Assembly: GCA_011772205.1 (NCBI GenBank)
Contig: WVZY01000069.1
Coordinates: 1-63,079, forward strand
DNA: 63,079 nt
Source of the DNA: Candidatus Latescibacterota bacterium
Lineage (GTDB): Bacteria > Krumholzibacteriota > Krumholzibacteriia > WVZY01
Direction of reading: 5' to 3'
A model generated the notes under the pieces. The model worked only from the letters and a program-made list of their open reading frames with translations. It was not told the origin of the DNA and did no database searches. Positions 33,617 through 53,927 of the stretch are shown here, one piece after another. Every line of letters starts with the position of its first letter. Positions within the stretch are counted from its first letter, which is position 1. A program made the translations under genes and the position numbers.

Positions 33617-34105
33617 ATGAAAACGTCCTTCCATCGCGTGTATCCCCGCATAATATTCATAGGTTTGCTAATCCTGATGACCGTCATTCCTTTCGGTTCC
33701 AATGCGCTACAGGTCAAACAATCTTCCAATGGATGGGTAATTGTCCTGGCCCTGGGCGAGGAAGCGAAGGTCGGGCCGTTGCTGCTCGGCTTTGAGAGCA
33801 TTTTGGGAGATTCAAGATGCCCGATAGACGCCCTGTGTCTATGGGAAGGTGATGGTGCGATTCTCGTGAAGGCCTCGAAGTGGAAAGCCGAACCGGTGTG
33901 GCATCCACTGCATACCCATCCATCGTTCGGCAGCGAGTTCGAGTACGAGGGCTACAAAATCGCCCTAACTAGACTCGACCCGCAACCGGTGGTGGATCAT
34001 CCTATCCCCCCAGACGAGTACCGGGCGACGTTGCGCATCACCGAGACAAGCATTTTGCCGACAGGGCCTTCGACGTGGGGCAGGATCAAGGATCTCTATA
34101 GATAA
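33617..34105 (+). CDS. Secreted protein ending in the TWGRIK-type tail
   Basis: The 162-residue exported protein has a signal peptide (about 1-30). A compact beta domain follows with a conserved paired-cysteine block (DSRCPIDALCLWEGDG), a pattern I know from small uncharacterised exported proteins. The last residues are GPSTWGRIKDLYR and the stop. Two other exported proteins here end in nearly the same way (50042-51175 and 53089-53927), suggesting a shared C-terminal signal. The ATG follows GGGAGAG. Function unknown. Confidence 0.75.
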   Translation: MKTSFHRVYPRIIFIGLLILMTVIPFGSNALQVKQSSNGWVIVLALGEEAKVGPLLLGFESILGDSRCPIDALCLWEGDGAILVKASKWKAEPVWHPLHTHPSFGSEFEYEGYKIALTRLDPQPVVDHPIPPDEYRATLRITETSILPTGPSTWGRIKDLYR

Positions 34106-34530
34106 ACTCCTTGGATATCAAACCGGCCAATCTAACCCAATCAAGAAGAAACCGTTGAGTCGTTGGTTGGTGCTCTTCTTAACCTGAACCTGGCCCAAGG
34201 TTACCAAGCCCGCGAGCTCTTCGGGCTTGACGGGGCCAGGGTTGCGCTGGGGCGCTGGCCTGTATCAAATGCGGTAACCAAAACTGCAGGTCATGCTCAA
34301 AATCCAAGATACTTAGACCATTCTAGACCCGTTCCTAACTCAGAAACACCCCCGTTCGTCACTCTCTTCAAGACAGAGAACACCGCCACCTTGTTCGAAG
34401 ACTCAGGGCTTCAAAGCTAGGGGGTGATGATTCTGCTGACAACCTGCTGGGCTTCGATGAGTTTCTTCCTGGTGCCGGAGTTCAGGGCACAGGTATTATT
34501 AGCACCCATTTTCTCTTCCGGAGCTATATT
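34106..34530. other. Intergenic, no gene recognised
   Basis: An 85-codon plus-strand frame (34163-34420) lacks a ribosome binding site and family resemblance. The region separates convergent genes; no strong terminator hairpin with a T run was found. Confidence 0.35.
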
Positions 34531-36465
34531 CTAATCCCCGATGTAGCCGAGGGACTTGAGGCGTTTGTATTCCTCGTCACTAAGAATGGCCGGCATACCG
34601 GGAGCTTTGTTCTTGTGCAGTTCGCTGAGGTGGGACTCGAAAACAAGCATCAACTCCATCAGCACCGGCGGCTCATGTTCGAAGAGGTTCGTCCGCTCGT
34701 CGGGATCTGCGGCCAGGTTGTATAGTTCATAAGTGCCGTCGTCGAAGTTCATGATTAGCTTCCAATTTTCTTTTATGTAAGCGAGCTTCCGCTTGTCTAC
34801 CCCTTTCGCGTAGCTTCCCTCGCTGAATATGTGAGCCAGCGGTTCTTCTCCGGCCGCTATCCGGATCAAGTTGAGACCGGGCAAGCCATCCGCGTCGAGC
34901 CCGACGGCTTCGAGCAGCGTCCGACCAAGGGTGCGGATCTCGACCGGATCCTGAACCCTTCTCCCACACAGCTCAGGTCGCGAGGGATCGTATATAAAGA
35001 GCGGGACACGCACCAGCTCTTGATAGACATTTTTGCCATGCCCGAACCCGCCTCGTTCTCCGAACTCCTCCCCGTGATCGGCTGTGACGGCAATGACCGT
35101 TTCGTCAGTCAAGCCCGTTTCCTCCAGCGCGCGGAACAACCGGCCGATGTGCTTGTCGGTGTAAGAGATCTCACCGTCGTAAACGTCCCGGACGAATTTA
35201 AGATCCGCGTCGTTGAGTGACTTTGTATGCTTGAGGATTGACAGCTTGACATCCAAGGGAAGTGAACCATTGTAGCCAGCGCCGTAATCAAACTCCTCAT
35301 GTCTCAGATAGGTGTCGTGCGGGTCGAAGTAGTGAATCCAGAGGAAGAAGCTATCGTCTCGGTGCTCTCTCACGTAGCGAATTGCCGCGTCCGTGATCTC
35401 TGCGGAACACGTGCCGGCCGCGCCCCTTATGTTCTCCTGGTTGAAGACGGTGAAGCCCTGAGAAAAACCGTAGGTACTATTAACGTACGTGGCAGAGACG
35501 ACCCCTATCGTCGTGTATAAAGAGTTCCGGAAGCGCTCGGCGAGCGTCGCCACCCGATCTTTCATGCGCCGGCCATAGCTCACGGCCCCGTGCTCATAGG
35601 GATAGAGCGAAGTGTGGACCGTCGCCATGCTCGGCAAGGTCCAAGGCGCCTGGGATATAGCCATCTCGAACACGACGCCCTTCTCCGCAAGCGTATCGAG
35701 ATTCGGCGATGTAATCCGGTTGTGACCGTAGCAAGCAAGGTGATCGGCTCGAAGCGCATCGATGGAGATCATGATAACATTGGGCCCCGCCGGAACATGC
35801 GTCCGGACCCAGAACAATGCGAACAGGTTGAGTAGTACGATCAGGCCAATGCATGCGATCTGGAGTCCTCGGACGATCGATCGATTGACGATCCGGAGCA
35901 TAGCGCTCACCAACTTACGCTGTAGCCCTGTGCTGACCAGGAGATAGGCCGAGAAGAACAGCGCCACTCCCGCTACGGCTGTTAGCATGCCGCGCACGAA
36001 CGTCAACCGATGCTTCCACCACGGAACCATACCCGATGTGCGGAGGAACTCGGCGATGTAAGGGAAGAACTCGCTTTTGAAAGCAAACATGAGAATGAGG
36101 AATCCAACGAGCAGAACGGCGCTTAACAACAGGTTTTCTGTCTGGCTCCTGCGCCACACCTTTGCCTCAGGATTATGCCGCTCGTTGCGCGCGCGCACCG
36201 TGCGAACGATCCCGACACCGGCAAGGCTCACGGCAGCAATCGCGACGAAGATCAAGAGGCAGTAATTCACGCAACGTTGGAAGTTGAGAAGTACCAGTGT
36301 ATACATGCCGTGGCCGAAGTAGTCATTTGCAAGAATCTGACGCGCTGCGAGAAGGAGTGCCAGTATTTGGAATAATACCAGTTCGATGGCGAGAAGGGCA
36401 CATATAGATTCTTTTCCCTCTCGCCCATGGAGGGACATTCGTGATAACATCCTCACGAGCTTCAC
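34531..36465 (-). CDS. Membrane-anchored sulfatase / alkaline-phosphatase-superfamily enzyme
   Basis: The 644-residue protein has five membrane segments (within about residues 20-220) followed by a periplasmic sulfatase domain (about 228-644). Metal-site motifs include MISIDALRADHLACYG, HYFDPHDTY and TADHGEEFGERGGFGHG. The nucleophile region reads APWTLPSMATVHTSLYP, lacking the Cys/Ser-x-Pro-x-Arg of true sulfatases, so a Thr nucleophile as in LtaS/phosphoethanolamine transferases is possible. The tail RLKSLGYIGD is typical of this group. It probably modifies envelope lipids or glycans. The start is uncertain (GTG; ATGs 5 and 9 codons later). Confidence 0.85.
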   Translation of the reverse strand: MKLVRMLSRMSLHGREGKESICALLAIELVLFQILALLLAARQILANDYFGHGMYTLVLLNFQRCVNYCLLIFVAIAAVSLAGVGIVRTVRARNERHNPEAKVWRRSQTENLLLSAVLLVGFLILMFAFKSEFFPYIAEFLRTSGMVPWWKHRLTFVRGMLTAVAGVALFFSAYLLVSTGLQRKLVSAMLRIVNRSIVRGLQIACIGLIVLLNLFALFWVRTHVPAGPNVIMISIDALRADHLACYGHNRITSPNLDTLAEKGVVFEMAISQAPWTLPSMATVHTSLYPYEHGAVSYGRRMKDRVATLAERFRNSLYTTIGVVSATYVNSTYGFSQGFTVFNQENIRGAAGTCSAEITDAAIRYVREHRDDSFFLWIHYFDPHDTYLRHEEFDYGAGYNGSLPLDVKLSILKHTKSLNDADLKFVRDVYDGEISYTDKHIGRLFRALEETGLTDETVIAVTADHGEEFGERGGFGHGKNVYQELVRVPLFIYDPSRPELCGRRVQDPVEIRTLGRTLLEAVGLDADGLPGLNLIRIAAGEEPLAHIFSEGSYAKGVDKRKLAYIKENWKLIMNFDDGTYELYNLAADPDERTNLFEHEPPVLMELMLVFESHLSELHKNKAPGMPAILSDEEYKRLKSLGYIGD

Positions 36466-37024
36466 CCGCAGAAATAACGCCGCACCCGGCTACACTAGCA
36501 ATCACTGAATATAAAAGGTGCTAGCAAGTTGCAATTATACTCTCGCTTCCGTTTATTCCATCCGCCCTGCCATCTTTGACCATTCGAAGATTCTTATATT
36601 CTTATTCTTGCCTTCTAACAAGAAGAATACATTTTTCACTGGGCATCCGCCTCCCCACCACGATCTTTCTCGTCAGCACACCGCCACCGGCTTTAGGGCA
36701 ACCAACGAGCAGGATTGAAGACAGATGGAAGCGCGTGAGAACGCTACTACGAGTAAAATTTGAGTCGTTGCATCGGCACATGAAATCAGACGAACTCCCC
36801 TGATTCAGTGACTCTGTATTGAACCTGGATGGCATGAAGCTTTCGTAAGCTCCTAAATCATTTTATTCTATCATTAACTGAATCGTATTTCAATAATATT
36901 CGACCTCTCCTCTTTGTCGAAATCGAAGAAATCTGCTGGCCGCAATAACAGAAACTCGGACAAAGTACTTGTGAGCCACAGGAGTCTTTGTAAGCAACAC
37001 TTCCTGAACCGCCGAGAAATTTTC
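36466..37024. other. Intergenic with short repeat copies
   Basis: About 36560-36615 matches 57872-57930 (GCCATCTTTGA ... GAAGATTCTT). About 36917-36995 resembles the repeat at 58900-58980. Both belong to the dispersed IS-associated repeats of this window. No gene is seen. Confidence 0.45.
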
Positions 37025-38266
37025 TCAATTCTTTTTTAGTTCCTCCAGAAGCACCTTCGCTGCGTCGAAGTCCGGATTCAATTCCAGGGATTTTTCGCAG
37101 TGTTGCATCGCGAGCTTCTTGTCGCCGAGCTGTTTGTTGGCGTCGGCCAATTCGTAGTGGATGTAGTAGTTGTACTTTCCCTCAGGATACTCTTCAAGGC
37201 TGGCCTCGAGGAAGAGAATAGCGTCCTTAAGATAGTTTTTCTTATAGAGCTTATCTCCGATGCCGAGCAGTATGAATTCGCGGAACGAATACTCATCCGC
37301 GTGATCGCGCTTGAGCTCGCGAAAGAGCGCCACGGCCGCTGCAGCGCCTCGTTTTTTCCACTCGTGGTAAATTGGCACGTGCGGAGTAGGGCGGTCATCC
37401 TTGCCGTCCCGCATCCCTTCGACCAAATATTCCATCCATTCGTCTGCGCTGACGTAGCTGCCCGCATATGACTCCCATTCGGCTAGTATTTTTTCCTCCT
37501 GAAGAGTGGCGAGGTCCTTCCCTTCGGCCAATCCTTTACGAACGACCTCGATCGTCTGGACCAGCATGTCGTGATAGGCGCGCAGGTCATCCCACGTGCC
37601 CGTATCGTTGTGGCCCGATACGATTACGACGTCCTTTGGCAGCATCTCGATGGCTTTAGCCACGAGCGGTGCAAGCATCAACACGTCGCCGTCACTGTCC
37701 ACTGACGGGAAGTTGAATCCGTTCACCAGAGAACTTATGTGGACTACCTTTGATTTGGTGAAGTGGACGATGATCTCGTTGTCGTCGTGACCACCGCCCA
37801 TCGGGATGATTTCGATCGACTCGCCGTTGAATTCGAGAGTGTACTTATCGGACACAGTTATGTCCGGGTAGGTCGCGGGCGGGTACTCGTTGAAGATGTA
37901 GCTGCCGCTCTTGAGTTTCGACGGGAAAAGCTCGTGGGCGATGACGATGGGCTCAACGCCAAAGATGGCATTGCCGCCTATGTGTTCGACGTGCCGGTGA
38001 GTATTGATGATGTACTTGGGAGTCCCTTTGCCGTAACTATCGACCAGCTTTTTCAGCTCCTCGGCCTCGGCTTCGGTTTGTGTGTCCACGAGCAATAGGC
38101 CGTCATCTCCAAAGAATACGAGTGTATTGGTCGTGTACTCGCCCTGGTCGGTGGAGAGCATGTGTAAGTTGTCGGTGAGCTTGGTCACTTTGAAGAGCGA
38201 ATCGGCGGTTGCGGACAGCGGGGCAACAATAGACATAATCAGTATCAAAGCAAGCACCTGTAGCAT
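37025..38266 (-). CDS. Metallo-beta-lactamase-fold hydrolase with TPR tail
   Basis: About 413 residues: signal peptide (about 1-21), MBL domain (about 25-240) and TPRs (about 310-413). The metal motif reads HRHVEH (90-95), with Glu in place of the usual Asp of HxHxDH. Further ligands are the His in GGGHDDNEI and in VSGHND. It is probably a periplasmic hydrolase of unknown substrate; the Glu may change metal content. The ATG at 38266 follows AGGAGG, and an upstream extension of the frame lacks such a site. It shares its TPR arrangement with the hydrolase-TPR proteins near 12-16 kb. Confidence 0.87.
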   Translation of the reverse strand: MLQVLALILIMSIVAPLSATADSLFKVTKLTDNLHMLSTDQGEYTTNTLVFFGDDGLLLVDTQTEAEAEELKKLVDSYGKGTPKYIINTHRHVEHIGGNAIFGVEPIVIAHELFPSKLKSGSYIFNEYPPATYPDITVSDKYTLEFNGESIEIIPMGGGHDDNEIIVHFTKSKVVHISSLVNGFNFPSVDSDGDVLMLAPLVAKAIEMLPKDVVIVSGHNDTGTWDDLRAYHDMLVQTIEVVRKGLAEGKDLATLQEEKILAEWESYAGSYVSADEWMEYLVEGMRDGKDDRPTPHVPIYHEWKKRGAAAAVALFRELKRDHADEYSFREFILLGIGDKLYKKNYLKDAILFLEASLEEYPEGKYNYYIHYELADANKQLGDKKLAMQHCEKSLELNPDFDAAKVLLEELKKN

Positions 38267-38840
38267 GGAAACCTCCTGAAAGAACGTGGAAATAAAAACA
38301 GCGCTTATTAGTAAAAATAAAGATATGACAGCAACAAGGCAACCTGTCGCTTTTAAGAAATCCCGTTGAGTTCGGTTGTTCTCCATAGGCGGAATGCGTC
38401 TTGGCATCCCAACCCATAGAAGGGTTGCAAACGAAGATGCTCCCCGGGTTGGTGTCTCGGAGCATTCTATTGTGCGATCCGCTTCGGTTGCAATGGGACC
38501 GACGAACGTAAAGATGCTTTATTGCGGGCCCGCTTGCTCCTGCCAATGCCCTCCACAACTTGCTATATCAATATGACTTAACACATCGAATGCATCTTGC
38601 GGACGATGGCGTAGTGTATCGCTTGTAACAATCGCGCCGGCAGGGACGTTTTATATTCAAATGGTATTACATTAGCCCATTTCCGGCCCGCCGCAGCTGC
38701 CAGCGACACTCATCAAGCCGCTGCAGCCGACAAGCTCCCTACATTCCGCCAGTTTTCTTTGCCGGAAAGGCAATGCACAGATTGATGCTAATCTCGCGAC
38801 CGAAGAGAAGTAGGAACGCGGGCCAGCTTGGAGGTGCCCC
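38267..38840. other. Divergent intergenic region
   Basis: It separates the MBL-TPR gene from the serine hydrolase gene and must hold both promoters. I cannot assign boxes, and no RNA gene or repeat was recognised. Confidence 0.35.
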
Positions 38841-40577
38841 ATGAAATTCACGCTCGTGGTACTATTCCTCCTCCTTGCCGGAGCGCAGGGCAGTTTTGGA
38901 GCCGATCTGCAAAGCCGGGAGGAAGTGACTGAACTCACCGATGCTGTAGACAAGTTGTTTAGGGAGTGGGATGTGCCCGGCTCCCCGGGTGGCGCTGTCA
39001 TATTGACCGATGGCGGCGAAATAATACTCAAGCGCTGCTACGGGCTCGCCGACATCGAGCACGGTATTCCGATCACGCCTGAGACATGTTTCGAGCTGGC
39101 CTCGGTTTCCAAGCCCTTTACCGCCTTCGGTGTGCTTCTCCTGGAGCAGGCGGGCAAACTGACCCTCAACGACGATATCCGCAAGTATCTCCCTGAGCTG
39201 AAGGACTATGGTTCGCCGATTACCATCGCGGATCTCCTTCACCACACGAGCGGTCTCTCCGACTGGGTTCGCGTGCGTCCCTACGCAGGGCAATACGGAA
39301 GAAGCGGGTTCGGGATAGAGGAGCTCTTGAACCTTGTGGCGCGCCAGCGGGTTCTGGAATTCGAGCCCGGCTCGAAGTGGTCATACAGCAACACGAATTA
39401 CGCGCTGTTGGCCGAGATCATTGCCCGTGTTACGGGAAGATCCTTCGGTGAGTGGATGCAAGATAATGTCTTCGAGCCGCTGGCCATGCACGACACATCG
39501 TTCCCGGCAAACGGCAAGCGCATACTCCCAAACCGGGCAAACGCTTATCACCGCAGTTCCGCCGGTGAGCCCGTCCGAAGCCTCGTGGAGGCATTCGAGA
39601 TTCCGGGATCTGCTCACGCTTTCTCGACTATCGACGATATGGCAAAGTGGATCGACAATCTTCGGACGGGCCGGGTGGTTGGTCTCGACATCGTGGAGAA
39701 AATGCGGAAGAAAACCACGCTAACGACTGGAGAGCAATCGTTTTATGGCGCAGGGCTGGGGATCGGATCGTACCGCGGTATCCGAACGGCCGGGCACTCC
39801 GGTCAGACTGGGGCGTTCAAGACCGAGTTGGTATACTGCCCTGACATCGAAGTCGGTATCGCCGTGGTTGGAAACGCCGGGTGGTTGCAGGCGGATGATA
39901 TTTCACGCCGCATTCTCGATCTCTATTTGGGAGACGAACTGGAGCAGCTTCCCGAGGCTGCGGCGGTTGGAGCCGAGGAACCGGATGAAGCTTCGTCTTA
40001 TGATATGGACCCCGCAGAGTATGAACGTTTTCTCGGAGGCTACCGGCTCGATGCGGATCCATCCGTTCTCTTCGCCGTTGCGCGCGAAGGGAAATGGCTC
40101 GTGGGGGCAATCGTCGGGAAAGGCTTGGACTTTTTCCGGCCGTTAGCAGAGTCGGAGTTCGAAAACCGGCACCAAAACTGCCGACTGACTTTTTTCGGCG
40201 GGGAAGACAAGGAACGTGCAACGGAGCGTGTGCTGGTCATCCTCCGTGGCAAGGAGATGTGGGCGACCCGCGTACAACTTCCTGACGACCCCCGTTGGCT
40301 CGACGAATGCGTGGGATTTTACTACAGCGATGAGATCGAAGCGGCATACGAGATCGTCAGGGAATCCGATGGCCTTGCCGTCCACCTACCCAACTCGAAG
40401 AGCCGTCCGATTCACCCAATAGAGGCCGATCTACTTGCGGGAGGCATAGGGATACTAACATTCCTTCGCAGCGATAAGGGTGACGTCGTCGGGTTCGACT
40501 TCGGGGAACCGGAAGACCTGGGCGCGCGATTGATCCGCTTTGCACGGTACGAGCGGTCCAACTTGCCAAAATCCTAA
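38841..40577 (+). CDS. Beta-lactamase-family serine hydrolase with C-terminal lipocalin-like region
   Basis: The 578-residue exported protein has a signal peptide (about 1-20). Its catalytic domain (about 30-370) carries SVSK (88-91), YSNTNY and HSGQTG, a complete set for a class C/esterase-type enzyme. The second half (about 395-575) looks like one or two beta-barrel regions often attached to these hydrolases (FLGGYRLDADPSVLFAV, GFYYSDEIEAAYEI). GGAGGT precedes the ATG. Substrate unknown; probably a peptidase or esterase in the periplasm. Confidence 0.9.
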   Translation: MKFTLVVLFLLLAGAQGSFGADLQSREEVTELTDAVDKLFREWDVPGSPGGAVILTDGGEIILKRCYGLADIEHGIPITPETCFELASVSKPFTAFGVLLLEQAGKLTLNDDIRKYLPELKDYGSPITIADLLHHTSGLSDWVRVRPYAGQYGRSGFGIEELLNLVARQRVLEFEPGSKWSYSNTNYALLAEIIARVTGRSFGEWMQDNVFEPLAMHDTSFPANGKRILPNRANAYHRSSAGEPVRSLVEAFEIPGSAHAFSTIDDMAKWIDNLRTGRVVGLDIVEKMRKKTTLTTGEQSFYGAGLGIGSYRGIRTAGHSGQTGAFKTELVYCPDIEVGIAVVGNAGWLQADDISRRILDLYLGDELEQLPEAAAVGAEEPDEASSYDMDPAEYERFLGGYRLDADPSVLFAVAREGKWLVGAIVGKGLDFFRPLAESEFENRHQNCRLTFFGGEDKERATERVLVILRGKEMWATRVQLPDDPRWLDECVGFYYSDEIEAAYEIVRESDGLAVHLPNSKSRPIHPIEADLLAGGIGILTFLRSDKGDVVGFDFGEPEDLGARLIRFARYERSNLPKS

Positions 40578-40599
40578 CTACAAAAGTGGATCGCTCCTG

Positions 40600-40730
40600 A
40601 GGGGGCACGTCAGGTTCTAGTGCGAAAAAGACGCTTAAAAAATTGGAGAAGAAATAGATCAGTTGATCTCGTAAGGCAATAATGCTCAACCGACCGGCAA
40701 TCGCTTTTATGATAAAGTGTTGCATCAAAC
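40600..40730 (-). repeat. IS 3'-flank repeat, second copy at 62.6 kb
   Basis: On the minus strand TTTGATGCAACACTT, ATCAT and CGGTCGGTTGAG occur in the same order as at about 62600-62660, where they lie beyond the end of an IS transposase. This is therefore probably a solo IS end with no transposase attached. Confidence 0.5.
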
Positions 40731-40871
40731 GATCTCGACGGCACCAGGATCAAAAAAGGCGCCTGGCTGATCGCGGTCCGCAACGTCGGTAACAACTTGC
40801 GGGGCAAGACCGAGCGCGGCAAATTGACCGGATTCAGCATCCGTGGAGGCGCCTCGCGGGCGGGTATCTGA
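40731..40871 (+). pseudogene. Possible C-terminal fragment of an unknown gene
   Basis: Immediately after the IS-end repeat, one frame stays open for about 45 codons (DLDGTRIKKGAWLIAVRNVG and onwards) to a TGA at 40871, with codon use like real genes. There is no start or ribosome binding site. It may be the tail of a gene cut by the IS. Family not recognised. Confidence 0.3.
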
Positions 40872-41018
40872 CTGCCGTCAATCGCTGCTTTATTGCGTCG
40901 CGAAAATTGTTGTATTTTGGCCTGGGTCGCATAGTCTCTTATTCTTGGTAATGGAGGTTTCTTGGAACATAGGTGCGTTGGGGAAGGCAAGATCAAGGCA
41001 CTTTAACTGGTACCTAAT

Positions 41019-41942
41019 ATGAATGACTCGACCATCGTTGTGGCGGGAGCTACAGGTAATCTCGGCGGACGCATCGCGAGAGCTTTGCGCGAACGGGGAG
41101 CCAGCGTAAGAGCGCTTGTTCGCCACGGCACTGCGCTAGACAAGATTGAGCGACTGCAGAAGCTCGGCGTGGCGATTGCCAGGATCGACTTGAGCAACGC
41201 TTCCGAAGTGATACCGGCATGCTCGGGTGCGTCCTGTGTGGTGTCGGCGCTGCAGGGATTGCGGGACGTGATCGTGGAAAAGCAAACGGCTCTGCTCGAC
41301 GCTGCGATCAAGGCTGGCGTGCCGCGTTTTATTCCATCCGACTACTCGATCGATTTCACCAAGTTTCCACCCGGAGAGAATCGCAATCTCGATCTGCGCC
41401 GAGATTTCCACAAACGTCTGGATAAGACGTCGATTTCAGCGACCACGATCTTCAACGGTGCGTTTGCCGATATGCTGACCGGTCAGATGCCGCTCATTCT
41501 CTTCAAACTGAAGCGAGTTCTCTATTGGGGGGATGCGGACCAGCGCATGGACTTCACGACGATAGACGACACGGCCGCATTCACGGCGAGCGCAGCTCTC
41601 GATCCGTCCACCCCTCGCATTCTACGAATCGCTGGCGATCAACTCAGCGCCCGGGAACTGACGGCGGTCGTGAGTGAGGTGACCGGAAAGAAGTTCCGCC
41701 TATTCCGCGCCGGAGGTCTGGGAATGCTCGGCATGCTCATCAAGGTTGCGCGCGTGGTTGTTCCCGGAGAGAAGAAACTTTACCCGGCATGGCAGGGCAT
41801 GCAATACATGCGCAACATGTTCAACGGCCGGGCAAAGCTAGAGCCGCTCGACAACGATCGCTATCCCAGTATGCGTTGGACAACTGCGCGGGATGTGCTC
41901 TCAGCCAGTCAAGCCAGCATTACTGCGTCGAAACAACGCTGA
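41019..41942 (+). CDS. NmrA-like NAD(P)-binding protein
   Basis: The 307-residue protein begins with a Rossmann strand and loop (VVAGATGNLGGRIARAL, Gly motif at residues 9-15) followed by a basic NADP-type region (RALVRHG). FIPSDYSIDF and the later substrate-binding half match NmrA/isoflavone-reductase-like atypical SDRs. Members are reductases or redox-sensing regulators; the substrate here is unknown. There is no signal peptide, so it is cytosolic. The ribosome binding site is weak. It stands alone between IS remnants. Confidence 0.88.
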   Translation: MNDSTIVVAGATGNLGGRIARALRERGASVRALVRHGTALDKIERLQKLGVAIARIDLSNASEVIPACSGASCVVSALQGLRDVIVEKQTALLDAAIKAGVPRFIPSDYSIDFTKFPPGENRNLDLRRDFHKRLDKTSISATTIFNGAFADMLTGQMPLILFKLKRVLYWGDADQRMDFTTIDDTAAFTASAALDPSTPRILRIAGDQLSARELTAVVSEVTGKKFRLFRAGGLGMLGMLIKVARVVVPGEKKLYPAWQGMQYMRNMFNGRAKLEPLDNDRYPSMRWTTARDVLSASQASITASKQR

Positions 41943-41954
41943 TCTGACCTTTCC

Positions 41955-42220
41955 CTTTTGAAAACTCGATCGGCCTTGCCAAATTTGCACTCTCGCCTGC
42001 TCTATTATATCATAGAATGCATGATGCTCATCCTCTGGCACAAAAGGGGATTCCGATACTACTTGTTATGAAAACGCCACCCGCGATGGCTGTGAAGACC
42101 GAGTGTGCCCAAAGAAGCCCGCGAGCTTATTCGTAGTATGTCTCAAAATGATCCACTTTGGGGCGCTCCAAGAGTACACAGTGAACTACTGAAACTCGGC
42201 ATTGAAGTAAGGCTGTGCGG
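41955..42220 (+). pseudogene. Integrase-core (rve) transposase remnant, internally deleted
   Basis: The block opens with the IS leader repeat (GAAAACTC ... TTGCCAAATTTGCAC, ATTATATCATAGAATGCATG). It jumps to WHKRGFRYYLL and, after two in-frame stops, to KEARELIRSMSQNDPLWGAP then RVHSELLKLGIEV, the middle of an rve-type transposase. The HTH start and catalytic core are missing. Confidence 0.7.
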
Positions 42221-42242
42221 TTCATAGGCATCCTTTCCACTA

Positions 42243-43430: not shown

Positions 43431-43444
43431 CTATCGTCGATCTT

Positions 43445-44395: not shown

Positions 44396-44572
44396 CAAAA
44401 TCGATGCGGCTTTAGGAAGGGAAGGTTCAAGTCCGATTCTGGTCCCCGGGCCCGCCAGTCGTGCGAACCCGCACAGTCCTATTTGATTTGCCGACATGGG
44501 ATTCGAAACCGGGTCAATTCCGGGATCTCCTGCGTCCGCTGCGCCGCCGATCCTCGGGGGAGGTGCTACGAA

Positions 44573-45785
44573 TGAAACGACTACGTTTCTGTCTCGTTAT
44601 TGTGTTGGCCGCGCTTTCCGTGTCCACAATTGCTGCCCACGCCGCAGAGTGGCTCGTCAAACCGGACGGATCCGGAGACGCGCCAACAATACAGGCCGCA
44701 ATTGACTCGGCGAGCAACGGAGATGTGATACTGCTCGCAAACGGTGTCTTCACGGGGGATGGGAATCGCAACATTTTTATCATCAGGAAAAACATCACGA
44801 TCGAATCCCAGAGCGCAGAGCCGGAGAGCTGTATAATCGACTGCGAGGGCAGCGGCGAGGACCAGCGGTACGGCTTCCAACTATAAAACTATCACGCACT
44901 TGGTGTGGTCATGGAGGGATTTACCGTCACGAACGGCTATTCGGAAGCTCATGGCGGAGCCATTAACTGGTCCGCGAGTGCTAGTCCTCTCACGCTGAAC
45001 AACTGCGTGTTTTCGGCGAACACGGGAGATAACGGAAGCGGCATAAACGTCGGAATGTCCGGCGGGGGAACGCTCGTACTTGCCGATTGCGACTTTGTCG
45101 GAAACTTTTCCACAGCCGTGCATCTGCTTGAGGTAGGTGAGGTGCAGATAACGAACTGCAATTTTATTGGAAACACAGGGGGGATTTGCATAAATGAAAC
45201 TACCAATATCACCATCTCACACTGCACGTTTGCGGATAACCACGCTTACTATGGAGGCGGGATACTCTTTGGAAATGACTCAGCGGGATTGGTCACAAAC
45301 TGCATTTTTATCGGAAACGTCGCGAACTGGGGGGAGGTATCGGTTGCGACGACTCTTCCCCCATCATTGAAAGTTGCACGTTCTATGCGAACCGAGCTGA
45401 AGACAGCGGAGGCGGTGTGCGGAGTTTAGCCTTATTCGGGGAGGCGGCCGTTACCATATCCAAAACCATAATCGCCTCGAGTACCAATGGCGGTGCAGTC
45501 GCCTGCGCGGGAACGGGAACCGCCACGCTTAACGTTTGTGATGTCTACGGGAATACGGGGGGTGACTGGGTCGACTGCATCAGTGGGCAGCTTGGCGTTG
45601 ACGGGAATATTTCTGAATCTCCGCTTTTCTGTGATACCGCAAGTGGCGATCTCACGCTCCACGAAGATTCTCCGTGTTTGCCCGAAAACAACGACAGCGG
45701 CGCAGAGGTCTCAACCGGTGTCTACTTTGTCCGTCTCGAGGCGCGTGGCCAGGTGGTGACGAGGAAGGTTGTGTTATTGCGCTGA
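44573..45785 (+). pseudogene. Secreted parallel beta-helix protein gene, broken
   Basis: The start is intact: ATG, signal peptide (ending AAHA) and WLVKPDGSGDAPTIQAAIDS, typical of right-handed beta-helix (pectate-lyase-like) exported proteins. Three lesions follow. An in-frame TAA (44884-44886) interrupts RYGFQL/NYHALGVVMEGF. A frame change in a G6 run (about 45329-45334) moves NWGE to GGGIGCDDSSPIIESCTF. Near 45690 the helix end (CLPENN) is joined directly to the last ~27 residues of a FlgD-like sorting domain (VSTGVYFVRLEARGQ, then KVVLLR). It is probably non-functional. Confidence 0.8.
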
Positions 45786-45994
45786 ATCCGTCCTCTGTGG
45801 CCATTGCACCGCATCGCCACCTCCAGTGTGCACCTCAACCGGCTCGGAGTGAGTGGGGAGGAGGTGACGCAGACACGTCAATCTTGAAGATGTTATTGTA
45901 TTCGTGTCGTCCCTGTAGTACCATCATCGCCAGAACCGCCCCATTTAACAGCCAACTTCCATCCAACGCCTCGCACTCATTGCTGTTGGGGTTG

Positions 45995-46340
45995 TTTCTT
46001 TTGAAAACTCCGCCCTCCTTGCCATCTTTGCGCTAACTCTTGCTCTATTATATTATGGAATGCATGACACTCATCCTCATACGCACATTCTTCTCTGCGC
46101 TGAGGTCGCACCATGCGTCCACCTTGGAAAACGTGGCCCTACGTCATCAACTTGATATCTTACAAGGAAATACGAAGAAGCCTCGCGCACGAATCGGGAC
46201 AGGTTCCTTTGGGTTATTCTCACCAGAATCTGGAGCGATTGGCGAGAACAGCTGAATCTCGTCAAATCCGAAACAGTTATCAGTCGGCACAGCCGTCCCT
46301 TCTTGATTGGATGTAGTTTTCAGGAGGAACACCGGAAGGT
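45995..46340 (+). pseudogene. Transposase N-terminal remnant, frameshifted
   Basis: After the shared IS leader, the frame MTLILIRTFFSALRSHHAST-LENVALRHQLDILQGN runs into a frameshift near 46195. The next frame gives FLWVILTRIWSDWREQLN then LVKSETVISRH, the usual rve-type transposase continuation, before homology stops at about 46316. This is the longest N-terminal copy in the window. Confidence 0.75.
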
Positions 46341-46482
46341 TTCTCGGTTTTTTGCAGGGTGTAAATATACCAGACCTCCATCGACACTTTGTGTTAAATT
46401 AATATTACCGCAAGGAGGTCATATGCTGGGGTAGACGGCGCAGTAATCGACGAACTTCGCAAACAAGCATTAGGAGGATAGA

Positions 46483-47547
46483 ATGCATCTATCACAAATC
46501 AAGAAGATTGCGGCCGCTGCAACGCTGCTCATGTGTACCGGCGTTGTCGTTTCCGCCGCCGAGTTGGAAGTGGTAGCGGAGTCCAAGCTGCAATGGACGG
46601 GGATCGCGGTCACCGACGATCACAAAATCTTCGTCAACTTTCCGCGCTGGTCCCCGGCGGTGACGATCTCGGTCGCGCGATTGGATTCCTTGGGCGCGGC
46701 TCAACCGTTCCCATCAGCTTCCTGGAACAGCTGGAAAATGGGCGAGCCGGTGCGCGAGGACGCCTTCGTCGCCGTACAGAGTGTTGTGCGCGATGCGCGC
46801 AACCGCATCTGGGTGCTCGATACAGGCAATCCTTACTTTATGGGAGTGGTTGCTGGCGGCGCGCGGCTATTCTGCTTCTCCTCGGATACCGGCAGAGAGC
46901 TGCAACGTTTTTCGTTCGGTCCCGATATCGCGCGCCAGGGTACCTATCTCAACGATGTACGTCTTGACCTGGAGCATGATCACGCCTACATCACCGACTC
47001 CGGCGAAGGGGGATTGATCGTCCTCGACTTGCATAACGGCATCACCCGCCGCCTTCTGGACGGCCACCCCGCAGTGCTGGCTGAAGATACGGATGTCACC
47101 ATCGGAGAACAACCGTGGAAAATAGCGGGACAGACGCCCCGCGTGCATTCGGACGGAATTGCCTACGTCCCGAAGCGCGACCACGTCTACTTCCAGGCGC
47201 TCACCGGCCGAACGCTTTACGCTATCGACGCCGCAATCCTGCGAGACACGGAAGCGTCGGCGGAAAAAGTCGCCGCAGCCGTAAAAGCCGTGCTGAAGCA
47301 CCGTCCCGTAGACGGCATTTTGGCCGGTCCCGACGGCGCTATATACCTGAGTAATCTGGAGCAGAGCGCCATCGACCGCTGGTCGCCGGGCGCCGAGGTC
47401 GAAAGGTTGGTTGGTGATGAACGGCTGGTCTGGCCCGACAGCTTCAGCCTGACCGCCGACGGCTGGCTCCATGTCGCGACCAGCCAGATCCATCTAGGAC
47501 CGCAGCCGGATACACCGTATTTGGTTTTACGGATCAAGGTGTACTAG
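46483..47547 (+). CDS. Major royal jelly/Yellow-family protein, secreted
   Basis: This 354-residue exported protein has a signal peptide (about 1-26). The six-bladed propeller pattern of the MRJP/Yellow family follows: WTGIAVTDDHKIFVNFPRW, VRDARNRIWVLDTGN, YLNDVRLDLEHDHAYITDSG and SDGIAYVPKRDHVYFQALTG. Bacterial members are uncharacterised; insect relatives include melanin-pathway proteins. AGGAGG precedes the ATG. It is GC-rich, intact and flanked by IS leader remnants on both sides, so horizontal acquisition is possible. Confidence 0.88.
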   Translation: MHLSQIKKIAAAATLLMCTGVVVSAAELEVVAESKLQWTGIAVTDDHKIFVNFPRWSPAVTISVARLDSLGAAQPFPSASWNSWKMGEPVREDAFVAVQSVVRDARNRIWVLDTGNPYFMGVVAGGARLFCFSSDTGRELQRFSFGPDIARQGTYLNDVRLDLEHDHAYITDSGEGGLIVLDLHNGITRRLLDGHPAVLAEDTDVTIGEQPWKIAGQTPRVHSDGIAYVPKRDHVYFQALTGRTLYAIDAAILRDTEASAEKVAAAVKAVLKHRPVDGILAGPDGAIYLSNLEQSAIDRWSPGAEVERLVGDERLVWPDSFSLTADGWLHVATSQIHLGPQPDTPYLVLRIKVY

Positions 47548-47555
47548 TCGCAGTT

Positions 47556-47710
47556 TTTGAAAACTCCTTCCACCTTGCCATGTTTGCAGTTACGTTCGTT
47601 ATATCATACATCGCATGCTTGCAATCATCTTACGCGCAATTTTGTCAGCCTCGAAGTCTCACCGTGCGTTGACCTTAGAAAACTTGGCGCTACGTCACAT
47701 GAAGTGAGCC
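47556..47710 (+). repeat. IS leader remnant
   Basis: TTTGAAAACTCCTTCC, CTTGCCATGTTTG, ATATCATACATCGCATGC and a short frame MLAIILRAILSASKSHRALT-LENLALRH, then loss of homology. Confidence 0.7.
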
Positions 47711-47874
47711 AAATCAAGATTCTATAATCTACAGTTGACAGTGAACCAGTTAGTTGAGACAATATTAAAGGCTCACGCAAGCGGTTCAGTTCGCGAGACG
47801 AGCGGATTCCAAGAATAAAAGAATGCCTGCCGGAACCCTCGGATGGCCCAGGCTATTCTCGAGGGGATTCTTTC

Positions 47875-49908
47875 ATGTTCAGTTGGTTGGAATCAAGAGC
47901 ACTCTGTGCCTTTTCCCACCTCTGTTTTCTTCTCTCCATATCGGCACTATCACTGATTCAGGTGGAGGCGGGAGCTACGATTCCACCTCGTCCGGGACAG
48001 TACGACTCCCAGTCGGGACTTTTGCGCTCCGGTTATCCCCCGCCGGTGTTTAACGATGAGTTCGGTAACGTGGTCCGGCCACTTCGGCAAATCTCAGGAG
48101 ATGGGCGTGCAGTTGCTCTTCTTGTTGATTTCCCCGATCGGCCAGCCAACAGATTGGCTCGGCCAGACTCCTTCTACAATGACCTTCTTTTCAGCCAAGG
48201 GACTCATCCCACAGGAAGTCTCCGTGACTTCTATCTCGAGCAATCTTACGGAGCTTACAACGTTACTGGCGAAGCACATGGCTGGCTCCGGACTTTTGAA
48301 GAATACTACACGACGTTTGATGATGGAAACTTCGGGGCATCGGGTGGAGCACGGGGCGTAGGCATCGCTGTCATCCTCTTGGCTGATCCAATCGTTGATT
48401 TTAGCACCTTCGATTCGGACGGTCCCGATGGCATCCCTAATTCCGGTGACGACGATGGCTACGTAGATGCGTGCATAGTTATTCACTCTCAGTTAAGTGG
48501 CTATGATACGCTAGACCCGTCGGATTTCTGGCCGGTTATTTCGACCATTGACCCTGACCTCGAAACCGATGACTCGGCGGCGGGAGGTGGTTTTATCCGG
48601 ATCGGCTGGTTCTCGATACAACCCGAAGTTGCCCTGGCCTACCCTCCCGTTGACACCCTGGACTCCTTTCTTGGCGTCATCGCCCACGAGTACGGCCACC
48701 TGATAGGACTCCCCGATCTGTACGATAAGAGCCATGTGACCTGGGGAATCGGGTATTGGGGATTAATGGGATACGGTTCCGGAGGGTGGCAAAGGACCGG
48801 TCCCTATCAGCTGTCCGCCTGGTCCAAGGTGCGAATCGGCTGGGTTACTCCGACGATAGTCACCGAGAACCTGTTGGACGTGACGATACCACCAGTTGAA
48901 ACCCAACCGGTCATTTACAAGGTTTGGCGGGACGGTGTGCCTGGGGACGAATACTTTCTTCTCGAAAACCGGCAACCTCTTTTGCACGACGAGATGCTTC
49001 CAGGCCATGGTCTTCTTATTTGGCACGTTGACGAGTCGGCCATTGGCTCAAGCACTTCCGATGGGATGAGTCCGGAGTTCGACTTCTGGATCGGTCTCGA
49101 GCAGGCGGACGGCCGCAACGATATGAACACGTGGTTTAACCGTCCGGACCGAAACGATTACTATCCCGAGCTTGGAGATGGAGGTGACCCCTTCCCAGGA
49201 GACTCCATAAACACCCGCTTTGATGATTATTCCATTCCTTCGAGCCGGGATAACAGCGGCTTGCCAACTGACGTGAGCATCGTTGATATCACATCGGTCG
49301 CCAGTGATATACGGCTCAGTATTATTATCGACTCTTCAATGGTGGCTGTTTATTTCACAGGCTTTCGCGGAATTACGGTGGATAACGGGATTGAACTTAT
49401 ATGGGCCGTTTACACAGACGAGTCAATTGATGGCTTCAAGCTTTATCGATGCGAGGAAAGTAGTAGTCGGGAGATATCGATTCCTGAGTACGGCTTGATA
49501 CCACCAGAGAGAAGGCGTTATGTAGACGAGAAGGTGCGGCCGGGGGAAACGTATTCTTACGTGCTTAGCGCCGTCAGGCCGGATGGATCAGAATTGAGGT
49601 CGCTTCCTGTAGAAATAACAACTGAAGCTCTTTCTCTCGCGTTGCACCAGAACTATCCAAATCCTTTCAACCCATCTACTACGATTTCATTCTCCTTACC
49701 CAGAGAAGCTCGGATCCGCTTGTCTATATTCAATATCGAAGGGAAGCTTCTCAGAACACTCATCGACGAGAAATTTCCCGCCGGATTCAGGCAAATTGAG
49801 TGGGATGGAAAAGATGAGCACGGAGATCCAGTCAGTTCAGGCATATATCTGTACCGGCTTGAAACAGAAAAGCGGGTACTGACAAAAAAGATGGTCTTGA
49901 TAAGGTGA
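47875..49908 (+). CDS. Secreted M6-family metalloprotease with FlgD-like sorting domain
   Basis: The 677-residue protein has a signal peptide and the immune-inhibitor-A (M6) plan: VALLVDFPDRPAN, then the zinc motif HEYGH (271-275) with GLPDLYD after it, and MGYGSGGW. A beta-rich region (about 500-590) leads to a C-terminal FlgD-like domain with HQNYPNPFNP, IFNIEGKLLRTLID and a terminal KKMVLIR, predicting type IX-like secretion or surface attachment. It should be an extracellular peptidase. The ATG follows GAGGGG. Confidence 0.9.
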   Translation: MFSWLESRALCAFSHLCFLLSISALSLIQVEAGATIPPRPGQYDSQSGLLRSGYPPPVFNDEFGNVVRPLRQISGDGRAVALLVDFPDRPANRLARPDSFYNDLLFSQGTHPTGSLRDFYLEQSYGAYNVTGEAHGWLRTFEEYYTTFDDGNFGASGGARGVGIAVILLADPIVDFSTFDSDGPDGIPNSGDDDGYVDACIVIHSQLSGYDTLDPSDFWPVISTIDPDLETDDSAAGGGFIRIGWFSIQPEVALAYPPVDTLDSFLGVIAHEYGHLIGLPDLYDKSHVTWGIGYWGLMGYGSGGWQRTGPYQLSAWSKVRIGWVTPTIVTENLLDVTIPPVETQPVIYKVWRDGVPGDEYFLLENRQPLLHDEMLPGHGLLIWHVDESAIGSSTSDGMSPEFDFWIGLEQADGRNDMNTWFNRPDRNDYYPELGDGGDPFPGDSINTRFDDYSIPSSRDNSGLPTDVSIVDITSVASDIRLSIIIDSSMVAVYFTGFRGITVDNGIELIWAVYTDESIDGFKLYRCEESSSREISIPEYGLIPPERRRYVDEKVRPGETYSYVLSAVRPDGSELRSLPVEITTEALSLALHQNYPNPFNPSTTISFSLPREARIRLSIFNIEGKLLRTLIDEKFPAGFRQIEWDGKDEHGDPVSSGIYLYRLETEKRVLTKKMVLIR

Positions 49909-50041
49909 GTCCCCAGCGAAAGTTTCTATTTATAGCCGATAAGAGGTTTAATGTCGTTCATAGGATGTATGTGGGATTGGATTTAATGTTACTTGGGCCA
50001 TAAACTTACGCTGCGCGATCTCATGCGGCTGGGAGGTTATC

Positions 50042-51175
50042 ATGAAAAAGTCATTGATATCGCTAATCATCGTCAATGTCCTAATGTTTTCCATAGACGT
50101 ATCTCCATCGTCAGCCACAACGTGGCACGTGCCCGGCGATGCATCCACGATTCAGGGGGGCATTAATATGGCATCCGGCGGCGATACCGTGCTCGTGGCC
50201 TGTGGAACCTACTACGAGCACGACATTAAAATGAAGTCCGGCGTCCGGCTTTTAAGCGAAACGAGACGGCCGGATTGCGTGACTATCAACGCTCAGCTAC
50301 AGGGTAGAGTGATTTATTGCCGCTTCATAGGCGCCGCGACCCGGATCGAGGGATTTACGATCACCGGCGGGCACGAGCCCTCGGCCTCTGGTGACGGGAA
50401 CGGCGGAGGCATATATTGTCTGGACAACTCGTCACCCTGGATCGTCAACTGCACAATCACGGACAATTTCGCCGGGGACGATGGTGGCGGTGTGTGCTGT
50501 AAAACCAATTCCTCACCCAGATTCATCGACTGTATCATCACCAACAACGAGGCCGGTAATGGCGGCTCCGGGATGAAGTTCGATAGCAACTCTTCCCCGA
50601 TGCTTACTGACTGTACGATCTCTGACAACATAGGCACTGGTATATGGACGAGCAGCTTTTCCTCGCCCGAACTCATCAACTGCACCTTTTCTGGCAATGC
50701 GTCAGGGATTGAACATACAGGTCCATCTTTTGGGACACCGGCAGATATTACGCTTACCGACTGCACCTTTTCCTCCACTGGTCAAGGAATGAGATTTTGG
50801 AACGTCACCGGCAATCTCACTAATTGTTCCTTCACAGGCAGTTCCAGTAGCTTCGGAGGTGGGATGAATCTCAATAGCGCCACCGTTACCTTGGTCAATT
50901 GCAATTTTTCCGACAACTCGGCCTATAACGGCGGTGGGATATACTTGAAAAACGGATCGTATTTGGCTGCCGATACTACAGTATTCGAGAACAATACAGC
51001 CTCAAATATGGGAGCGCATGGATTTATTGAGGTTGGGTGTGAAGCAGTGCTCACATGTTGCGTCCCCGATCTCACCGGGTTTACCGGCGATGGGATCATC
51101 ACTCTGATCTACGATGGGTGCATCACTCCGCTCGAGTCAACATCTTGGGGCAGACTGAAAGCTCTGTTTCGATAA
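50042..51175 (+). CDS. Secreted right-handed beta-helix protein with WGRLK tail
   Basis: The 377-residue protein has a signal peptide (about 1-28) and an opening shared with beta-helix proteins (TWHVPGDASTIQGGINMAS). About ten coils follow, marked by repeated DCTI/NCTF-x-x-N and SGNGGGI-like turns (about 90-330). It lacks a FlgD domain and ends in STSWGRLKALFR, matching the tails at 34105 and 53089. Surface location is likely; no catalytic residues can be assigned. GGGAGG precedes the ATG. Confidence 0.85.
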   Translation: MKKSLISLIIVNVLMFSIDVSPSSATTWHVPGDASTIQGGINMASGGDTVLVACGTYYEHDIKMKSGVRLLSETRRPDCVTINAQLQGRVIYCRFIGAATRIEGFTITGGHEPSASGDGNGGGIYCLDNSSPWIVNCTITDNFAGDDGGGVCCKTNSSPRFIDCIITNNEAGNGGSGMKFDSNSSPMLTDCTISDNIGTGIWTSSFSSPELINCTFSGNASGIEHTGPSFGTPADITLTDCTFSSTGQGMRFWNVTGNLTNCSFTGSSSSFGGGMNLNSATVTLVNCNFSDNSAYNGGGIYLKNGSYLAADTTVFENNTASNMGAHGFIEVGCEAVLTCCVPDLTGFTGDGIITLIYDGCITPLESTSWGRLKALFR

Positions 51176-51263
51176 AATCCTTCAGCTTCGAAAAGTGAGT
51201 GCGCCGTCGGCTTCAAGCACGGTGTTCTCAGTTCTGTGCTGAAGCACGCTGCAGATATGTCCT

Positions 51264-51372
51264 ACCTGCCGAGACAGTTCTTGGATTTTTTTAGCATTTC
51301 GCTCAAAGCCTCATAAGGGGTTTTTCCATCAAATGCTCCATGGGGTTGATCATAATTGCAGAAGCAAGGCAT
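51264..51372 (-). pseudogene. Integrase-core transposase C-terminal remnant
   Basis: The minus strand reads FCNYDQPHGAFDGKTPYEAL then SEMLKKSKN, the usual ending of IS481/rve-type transposases (YNYxRPHGALGGKTP). No other part remains. Confidence 0.65.
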
Positions 51373-51535
51373 ACTGATACACAACTAATCATGTGAGAAC
51401 ACTCGCGAGAGTTGCCGTTTGCACCGGAACACCCTGCTGCGCCAGATAAAGCAAAATCTGATGTCGACCGCTCCCTTTCCAATAATCCATATCATCTCGA
51501 GGATGATCGAGCACGCAACTTCCCAGCCACCGTCT

Positions 51536-52963
51536 TTACACACTCGGCTGTATGTTCTGGTTCAGTCTAAAAAAGTTGGTCGGGTCGTACTTGTTCTTCA
51601 GTGCAACCAAGCGATCGTAACTATCGCCATAGGCTACCTTCACGCGTTTCTCTTCTTCCTGCGTCATGAAGTTCACATATACTCCGCCGGTCGAATATGG
51701 GGTCATGACCTCGAACAACTCGCGGCACCACGCGGTGCAGCGATCGTCATCGGCCTCGTTTTCCCACCTCCCGTGCACGTTCATGATGAACTCGGCATCG
51801 CGGTGATGGTATGCCGTTGCGTCTTTGGGAATACGGTTAGTGGCCCCACCCATCTGTGCGATGAAGATCTCGCAATGCGGGCTGGGGAGCGTATCTACGA
51901 ATTGGATTGTGGTGTCGAGAGCTTCATCGCTCAGCTCAGCGAAATCGTGAGATTTCCAATAGTTGCGAAATCCAGGAGTGAGCAACGGATCGAAGGCGGA
52001 CTGGAAGTCAACGAACGTGTGCGGCCCAATGACGTCTGCGATCGGATTACCGTGTTCGCGCAAAGGTGCGAGAGCTTTCTCTCCCTCCGCCATATCGTCA
52101 CCCGCATACATCGCTGCGAGAACCACGACCTCCGTGCCATGAACTTCCTCAGGCAGGAATGGCAGTGGAGGGGCCTTCCTCAGGACCACCCAAACTGTAA
52201 GTTCATCCGGCGCCTGAGCACAAAAATCGCGGTAGTAGCGAAGCACGTCTCTTGCCGCTGCGATTGGGTGCACGATCAGCCCAGCCAACACCTCCGGTCC
52301 TACCGGGTGGAGTTCAAATTCGAAAGACGTAACGATCCCGAAATTCCCTCCCCCCCCACGAATTCCCCAGAATAGATCGGAATTTTCACTCTTACTGGCT
52401 TTAACCAGTTCGCCGGCCGCGGTTACAACGTCTGCAGACACGAGGTTATCGATCGTCAAGCCGTGCTTCCGGCTGAGCCAGCCGAATCCCCCGCCAAGGG
52501 TGAGCCCGGCCACTCCCGTCGTCGAATTGATACCAATAGGCGTGGCTAATCCAAACGCCTGTGTTTCGTTGTCGAGATCACCCAATGTCACCCCGGGTTC
52601 GACGCGCGCACGCTTGTTGTCGGCATCTATTCGCACCGACTTCATCTTCGAGAGATCGATCATTATTCCGCCGTCACAAACAGAATTACCAGCGATGTTG
52701 TGACCGATGCCGCGGACCGATACCAATAACTGATTCTCCCGGGCGAAATTCACAGCTCGTATGACATCCACTGCACCGGCGCACTCGACAATCATCCCTG
52801 GCTTACGATCCACCATTGCGTTCCAGATGGAGCGCGCTTCATCATAGCGGTCCGCATCCGGCGTCAGCAGCTCTCCACGGAGACTGGCTGCGAATTCATC
52901 GATTGCATCCCGTGCAAAAGTCTCAGTAGAGCCATCCATGCATTTTAAAGTCAACTCTCTCAT
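51536..52963 (-). CDS. Berberine-bridge-type FAD-linked oxidase
   Basis: The 475-residue protein has the FAD_binding_4 domain (about 50-210): VRGIGHNIAGNSVCDGG, with the His that can bind FAD covalently, and GLTLGGGFGWLSRKHG. The substrate domain and the C-terminal BBE segment follow (YGDSYDRLVALKNKYDPTNF). The usual CxxG of bicovalent enzymes is not seen, since the segment reads LTLGGGFGW, so one covalent link is likely. Members oxidise alcohols, sugars or alkaloid-like substrates with O2. No signal peptide. AGGAGGAG precedes the ATG. Confidence 0.92.
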   Translation of the reverse strand: MRELTLKCMDGSTETFARDAIDEFAASLRGELLTPDADRYDEARSIWNAMVDRKPGMIVECAGAVDVIRAVNFARENQLLVSVRGIGHNIAGNSVCDGGIMIDLSKMKSVRIDADNKRARVEPGVTLGDLDNETQAFGLATPIGINSTTGVAGLTLGGGFGWLSRKHGLTIDNLVSADVVTAAGELVKASKSENSDLFWGIRGGGGNFGIVTSFEFELHPVGPEVLAGLIVHPIAAARDVLRYYRDFCAQAPDELTVWVVLRKAPPLPFLPEEVHGTEVVVLAAMYAGDDMAEGEKALAPLREHGNPIADVIGPHTFVDFQSAFDPLLTPGFRNYWKSHDFAELSDEALDTTIQFVDTLPSPHCEIFIAQMGGATNRIPKDATAYHHRDAEFIMNVHGRWENEADDDRCTAWCRELFEVMTPYSTGGVYVNFMTQEEEKRVKVAYGDSYDRLVALKNKYDPTNFFRLNQNIQPSV

Positions 52964-53088
52964 GTCTCCTCCTTCAGCTTCAGTACCAGCTTCGATTCAA
53001 ATGAAATAACCTCCCTCTCGAAAGCTTCTTCCAAAAGTGTTTCAGTTGATGGTGGCATTGTGTAATGCGAAATCCATCTCCGAACAAT

Positions 53089-53927
53089 CTAGCGATAAAG
53101 AAATTTTATCCCGCCCCATGTTGATTCCGAAGTTGGGACCGTGGCTAGATCGATGGCTGTTGCTCCCAGTACCCACGTGAGATGGTCGGTGAGCGTCGAA
53201 ATGGATAGAGTGTTTGAGCCCCAACTCGACGTGCCAATCATTTGCAACACACTGGCGTTCAGTCCGAGATTTCCGGTCAACGGCCCTCCGATGTTGGACG
53301 AGTTGTAATTCACTGTCTCTCTCAATGATGCACCGTCGTCAGTCGCGAAGACTCAGACATTCGTGCTTCCCGCTGGCAGCGAGGTGAACGTCATCGACTC
53401 TGTCTCCGCTCCGTTTTCGCTAACCTGCTTCACGCCATCAATGATAGTCACGGTTCTCATTTGTTCGGTAGCCGCGTGCTGCCAAGCTACCACCAGCCCT
53501 ACACCTGCGACGCCACCGGCATTCCCATGCCGTCCACCACGGTGAATCCATACGAAATAACAACCGGAAGGATGTTCGCTGTGACATCCCATTGATAGGT
53601 GCTCAATGTGATCAAAAGAGCCTCGCTCGCATAAGGACTTGCGATGGGGAGCGGAGATCCGTTGAACGTGGCAGAAAGTCCGAGGGTGTTGTTTGTCTGT
53701 GTTGCGTAGAGATAGGATTTTTTGATCCTCCCTTGTGGCAGATTTGCCAGCGTTAGAGTCCCCATAGCCGGCATACCTAGCCCAGCGGCTCCGATAACTT
53801 CGGGGTGAAGATTCACCGGTGCTTGATAAACCTGCGTGAACCCGGCCATGCAGGCGTGTGCGGTAAACAGCACACTGAACGGTAAATTAGCAAGCACAAA
53901 GAGAACCAGCAGTTTTGTGACGGACAT
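53089..53927 (-). pseudogene. Secreted protein gene with WGGIK tail, broken by frameshift and stop
   Basis: The 5' part encodes a signal peptide and a beta domain (GRIKKSYLYATQTNNT, YQWDVTANILPVV) up to about 53505. The next part is in another frame (AGVGLVVAWQHAATEQMRTV), an arrangement known from exported proteins with a GASLVVVY-type strand. An in-frame TGA at 53353-53355 follows, after which the same frame continues to the end (SESTWGGIKFLYR). Restored, it would be about 278 residues with the WGxIK tail. TGA is a normal stop elsewhere here, so recoding is unlikely. Confidence 0.7.

Follow-up and report, generated by a model that had tools for sequence, protein, structure and literature searches.

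Why do exported proteins with different bodies end in the same short, basic peptide, and what in the cell envelope would read it? Three genes of the window (the whole 63,079-nucleotide stretch of DNA analysed here) raise this question. The first (33617..34105, + strand) encodes an exported protein of 162 aa, for which the open reading frame, homologues and a structural model indicate a signal peptide, a small beta domain and the tail; the tail LPTGPSTWGRIKDLYR and stop codon occupy 34055..34105 (+). The second (50042..51175, +) encodes an exported right-handed beta-helix protein of 377 aa (PF13229, E=3.5e-21) with the tail TPLESTSWGRLKALFR and stop at 51125..51175 (+). The third exported protein (53089..53927, -) is encoded by a broken gene, whose tail VPTSESTWGGIKFLYR and stop lie at 53089..53139 (-). 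A DNA pattern of W-G-x-[hydrophobic]-K-x-[hydrophobic]-[YF]-R-stop matched exactly these three tails in the window, at 34076-34105 (+), 51146-51175 (+) and 53089-53118 (-), with the stop codon adjoining in each case and a chance expectation of 0.00 from shuffled sequence. The first-pass annotation had placed the three tails directly before the stop, had called the third gene broken and had assigned signal peptides to all three proteins, and each of these claims was borne out. The 33617 and 50042 genes are intact and each starts with a signal peptide. In the third gene an open reading frame at 53927-53499 opens with a signal peptide and meets a stop at 53499, and the tail part (53352-53089) lies in a different frame with an extra TGA just upstream. 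The bodies had been described as unrelated, which stands for the first two proteins: in the 33617 body, a small all-beta domain according to homologues and the model, two Cys are conserved and a C-x-W-E-G motif is present, and a fold search with this body gave no convincing match; the 50042 body is a beta-helix. The third gene is too broken for its body to be classified. A transposase-like gene (54584-55735, IS110-like by sequence) adjoins this broken gene, with whose decay it may be connected. Frameshifts or stops also break tail genes elsewhere in the source genome (L001, L009, L010, L045, L050 and L053), which is more than a functional set would lead one to expect; assembly errors are possible.

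Frequency and sequence of the tail

A search of the source genome (4.13 Mb) with the tail plus stop gave 13 exact matches, with none in the reversed control. Dropping the stop from the pattern raised this number to 15, and the two additional matches end one residue later (in LYRY and IYRQ), so that 15 of 15 genome matches are C-terminal. When two mismatches were allowed, 35 matches were obtained versus 5 in the control, corresponding to about 30 copies with variants, and the variant ends included LYK, LYQ, LYNK and LYKK. Across the phylum the tail was detected in 77 of 80 genomes (0-34 copies each, approximately 670 matches, control 0). The zero controls, together with synonymous positions that vary freely between the matches, rule out chance or a nucleotide-level repeat. 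Among distinct occurrences of [ST]WGx[ILV]Kx[LMI][YF]R in the fetched sequence, 139 of 141 lie within two residues of the stop and the other two within ten, a count that is partly biased as most loci were fetched by a stop-containing pattern. These results confirm the preferential C-terminal position that had been proposed for the tail.

The aligned tails define a signal of about 16 residues, [VIT]-[PAGS]-[TV]-E-x-[ST]-[ST]-W-G-x-[IV]-K-[SA]-[LMI]-[YF]-R, located 0-2 residues from the stop. All 54 aligned proteins have the W, the G and the K, although the search pattern itself selects for these three. Conservation beyond the searched pattern comprises V/I/T at -7, P/A/G/S at -6 and T/V at -5 relative to the Trp; at two further positions outside the pattern, cluster representatives have Glu at -4 (31/51, 61%) and S/T at -1 (43/51). 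Conservation starts only about 8 residues before the Trp, and the final residue is variable (R, K, Q, NK, KK or KQ). The Ser/Thr run that the first-pass annotation reported before the Trp is therefore real, while the conserved part begins earlier than described (about -7) and the last residue is not always Arg.

The last nine residues carry a charge of about +2 and the preceding eight about -1.2. Within the final 45 residues, only 1 of 113 tail proteins has a predicted membrane-like segment. Both AlphaFold models place a short helix on the tail with low confidence and no beta domain there, and the tail is probably a short amphipathic helix at a free C-terminus. Pfam searches of 54 proteins returned no model for the tail and no TIGR04183/PF18962 or FlgD-like C-terminal match, and an NCBIfam search of five tail proteins at E<=1 matched no curated CTERM or C-terminal sorting model. 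Text searches of the literature, with most subscription papers outside their scope, gave no report of the motif. Similar C-terminal ends probably occur in other uncultured phyla. The tail is a sequence without a curated name that is present on dozens of unrelated exported proteins in the source genome and its relatives.

Proteins carrying the tail and exchange with other signals

Among complete tail open reading frames of at least 150 aa, 113 of 117 have a signal-peptide-like start according to a simple in-house rule (not SignalP), compared with 53 of 184 neighbouring open reading frames (p=2e-35). The tail is consequently not spread equally over non-exported proteins. After removal of the signal peptide and tail, the bodies fall into 51 clusters (single-linkage, E<1e-3), which rules out a tail limited to a single body family and agrees with the diversity of folds claimed for it at first pass. 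Pfam domains on the tail proteins include beta-helix, CBM96, ice-binding, lamin-tail, thioester, Big_1 and GEVED domains, and NCBIfam adds a DNRLRE domain.

The commonest tail-bearing paralogue family in the source genome (L002-L006, L011, L047, L051 and L052, on contigs C50, C51, C53, C72, C25, C64 and C6) has a predicted cohesin-like fold (2jh2, E=4.1e-5, TM 0.71 by target). Beside tail genes there is also a small, tail-less exported protein with dockerin-like repeats (L091:1893-2619, also L023, L032, L036, L042, L116 and, on contig C51 of the source genome, L176:17681-18143). The cohesin-like fold and the neighbouring dockerin-like protein hint at a surface cohesin-dockerin-like pair. Within the neighbourhoods of about 20 kb around tail genes, this dockerin-like protein was the sole recurrent non-tail neighbour of interest; no recurrent enzyme, shuttle or PorV-family gene was found there.

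The other tail class of the source genome is the FlgD-like tail, the type-A tail of the type IX secretion system (T9SS). Two comparators lie in the window: an M6 metalloprotease (47875..49908, +) that ends in the type-A tail GIYLYRLETEKRVLTKKMVLIR (TIGR04183, E=8.8e-9), and a frameshifted beta-helix gene (44905..45785, +) with the type-A-like tail GVYFVRLEARGQVVTRKVVLLR and the same body class as the 50042 protein. The short-tail and type-A-tail beta-helix genes are 5 kb apart. Analysis of beta-helix proteins throughout the source genome identified some with the short tail (L136, L133 and L150) and others with the FlgD-like/type-A tail (L144, L147, L148, L151 and L154), and none with both.

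A similar exchange is seen with lipid anchors. All four 33617 homologues with the tail (33617, L165, L166 and L175) have a plain signal peptide and all five readable homologues without it (L167-L170 and L172) have a lipobox (Fisher p=0.008, three further homologues not having been read); L167, one of the tail-less homologues, stops in the alignment where the tail of the others starts. Among tail proteins in general, a lipobox-like start was observed in 3 of 113, one of them convincing (L117), versus 34 of 186 other exported-like open reading frames (p=4e-5). Exchange with both type-A tails and lipoboxes suggests that the tail either does the job of a lipid anchor or T9SS C-terminal domain (CTD), or needs a route that excludes lipidation. 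The first-pass view that the tail is distinct from the FlgD/type-A tails is upheld: its sequence differs, and it substitutes for type-A tails or for an N-terminal lipid anchor.

Candidate machinery and readings of the tail

The first-pass annotation had also proposed a separate C-terminal sorting or anchoring signal, perhaps read by a dedicated processing enzyme. The first half is supported by the dozens of bodies and the C-terminal position, and we regard a role of the tail in sorting to the envelope or surface, by whatever means, as very probable; the evidence for it is much stronger than for the choice of machine. The second half, with any cleavage of the tail, stays hypothetical: no tail-specific enzyme was found. 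Exosortase was detected in 29 of 78 genomes of the phylum and in none of the scanned genomes of family f8, the bearer of about 500 tails, a distribution that rules it out as the tail reader. What does track the tail is the general type IX system. The SprA translocon is encoded in 78 of 78 genomes versus 0 of 14 control genomes, and the PorV family (about 10 copies each) and the C25 peptidase are likewise present in 78 of 78; in many genomes the C25 gene adjoins a PorV gene, as in a porU-porV pair (e.g. G000 C8:176639-179898). Because SprA, PorV and C25 are universal in the phylum, their co-occurrence with the tail there cannot discriminate. The expansion of the PorV family phylum-wide, at about 10 per genome, would suit several shuttle specificities. 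Family f4 (G003-G006), where tails are fewest (0-2) and C25 peptidases most numerous, has a SprA that fits the model of this protein better and over longer stretches than do the SprA proteins elsewhere in the phylum.

Sampling of other phyla extends this comparison. Of 307 genomes, 277 lack the tail, 18 have one and three have two, and nine, from six families, have 12-56; most of the tail proteins read from these phyla have signal peptides. In the sampled DNA of the tail-rich genomes, SprA was found in G144 (E=1.5e-192), the PorV family scored above the NCBIfam cut-off in G144, G213, G147 and G288, and several have C25-like genes and type-A tails. In the tail-rich genomes sampled to any depth, therefore, the tail came with T9SS parts. 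In G129, 0.6 kb separates a lone tail gene from a PorV-like gene, and the body of the tail protein weakly resembles (E approximately 0.001) a domain of type-A-tailed proteins. Single-tail genomes often share a near-identical end, WGSIKA(M/L/I)FR (L235:6333-6767 in G129; G271, G293, G152, G373, G086, G234 and G080); these proteins may be one orthologous small exported protein, which could be the ancestral tail protein. Most bacteria with a T9SS are Bacteroidota. Most T9SS bacteria appear to do without the tail, and the presence of a T9SS does not in general entail it.

The reading that we consider to have an even chance of being correct is that the tail is a minimal C-terminal sorting signal for the PorV-family/SprA type IX route. 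Sec and an ordinary signal peptide would carry the tail proteins across the inner membrane. The tail, linear and transferable, would then act as the signal: its roughly 16 residues comprise an acidic lead (E at -4), then an S/T cap and finally W-G-x-I-K-x-L-Y-R, and would take the place of the known CTDs of 40-100 or more residues. One of the roughly 10 PorV-family barrels per genome may be the shuttle that reads it at the SprA translocon; passage through the outer membrane by the type IX route would be followed by retention on the cell surface, possibly with cleavage. This type IX reading is favoured by the co-occurrence of SprA, PorV and C25, by the exchange with type-A tails and by the T9SS parts in tail-rich genomes of other phyla. 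It is weakened because the tail lacks the beta-fold and motifs B, D and E, and because no PorV-family gene recurs as its neighbour.

Tentatively, the tail may instead address a separate receptor or transpeptidase outside the type IX system and serve in outer-membrane retention, for example through binding or cutting at S/T-W-G. It is wholly unlike T9SS CTDs in length and motifs (PMC10202324), abundant type-A tails already serve the T9SS in the same genomes, and its near-strict distance from the C-terminus fits a dedicated receptor. However, no candidate enzyme tracks the tail, exosortase being absent from the tail-richest family, no enzyme or shuttle recurs among the neighbours, and all T9SS-independent candidates are unnamed. 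An unlikely reading is that a short amphipathic basic helix, read by no protein, binds peripherally to the outer membrane or lipids; the low-confidence helix in both models and the charge of about +2 over the last nine residues would suit it, yet the invariant W, G and K and the fixed C-terminal spacing are far stricter than amphipathicity requires, and membrane binding does not demand a C-terminal placement. Still less probable is a C-terminal tag that marks proteins for proteolysis or quality control in the envelope: the tail is short, C-terminal and borne by small exported proteins, and several tail genes are broken in the source genome, but many protein lineages, large structural folds among them, have kept it, and it exchanges with signals for surface display. 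Least credible is a CTERM signal of the exosortase, rhombosortase or myxosortase type. In its favour, many unrelated exported proteins have one C-terminal motif in common, and that motif ends in basic residues; but 112 of 113 tail proteins have no transmembrane segment, NCBIfam CTERM models match 0 of 5, and exosortase is confined to the 29 genomes mentioned above, none in f8; the absent membrane segment rules out such a tripartite signal and, for rhombosortase and myxosortase, is the only ground.

Returning to the type IX reading and its separate-receptor alternative together, we lean slightly towards a new class of signal for outer-membrane export or surface anchoring: a linear peptide at the C-terminus, about 16 residues long and without a folded domain or membrane segment, that would be read by specialised PorV-family shuttles or by a wholly new receptor, phylum-wide and in at least six families of other phyla. 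If true, this would explain how numerous exported proteins lacking a lipid anchor, a membrane anchor and a type-A CTD are sorted, and one short regular expression would predict a large part of the cell-surface proteins of several bacterial phyla about which little is known. A testable question also arises: is a linear peptide, in place of a folded CTD, acceptable to a type IX translocon with an expanded set of PorV-family barrels?

Comparison with known C-terminal signals

Among known short signals, the PEP-CTERM/exosortase, GlyGly-CTERM/rhombosortase and MYXO-CTERM/myxosortase systems (PMC3237569, PMC11980579) resemble the tail in having a short signal with a basic end on dozens of exported proteins per genome. 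Unlike the tail, these signals are tripartite, with a motif, a transmembrane helix and a basic cluster; the tail proteins lack the helix (segment in 1/113) and exosortase does not co-occur with them.

Known T9SS signals are considerably longer. Type A CTDs comprise about 70-80 residues folded as a beta-sandwich, type B about 100 or more and type C about 100 (PMC11969387, PMC12618676, PMC10202324). Type B and type C CTDs and alternative shuttles (PMC12618676, PMC10202324) demonstrate that one translocon can serve more than one kind of C-terminal signal and of shuttle: type B cargo is served by other carriers (PMC10994853), and alternative shuttles reading different signals are known (PMC12618676). 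These type B and C signals are of about 100 residues or more, compared with about 16 for the tail, and type B cargo is often encoded beside a PorP/SprF shuttle, whereas no shuttle recurs beside tail genes.

A close comparison is also with type A CTDs (TIGR04183/PF18962), which bind PorV and the SprA pore and contain one almost invariant Lys near the C-terminus (PMC10994853). Minimal CTDs are also known; the short type A CTDs of Prevotella intermedia comprise 40-55 residues in three strands (PMC11969387). For Hbp35 the absolute requirement is the last 22 residues only (discussed in PMC11969387), which makes a very short signal conceivable. Like type A and the P. intermedia short CTDs, the tail is C-terminal, and the Sec-exported bodies that bear it are many and unrelated, in genomes that encode SprA, PorV and C25. 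Its bearers have the unlipidated Sec signal peptides of type A cargo (113/117, with 3/113 lipobox-like), and their genomes encode SprA and the PorV family (78/78 in the phylum, with parts in the other sampled tail-rich lineages). As in the type A CTD, a Lys close to the end of the tail is conserved and the final residue is basic, and the two signals exchange on beta-helix bodies. The type A CTD is a folded beta domain of 40-80 or more residues with motifs B, D (GxY) and E; neither the span of conservation nor the models reveal such a domain or motifs in the tail, which in about 16 residues has an invariant W-G instead.
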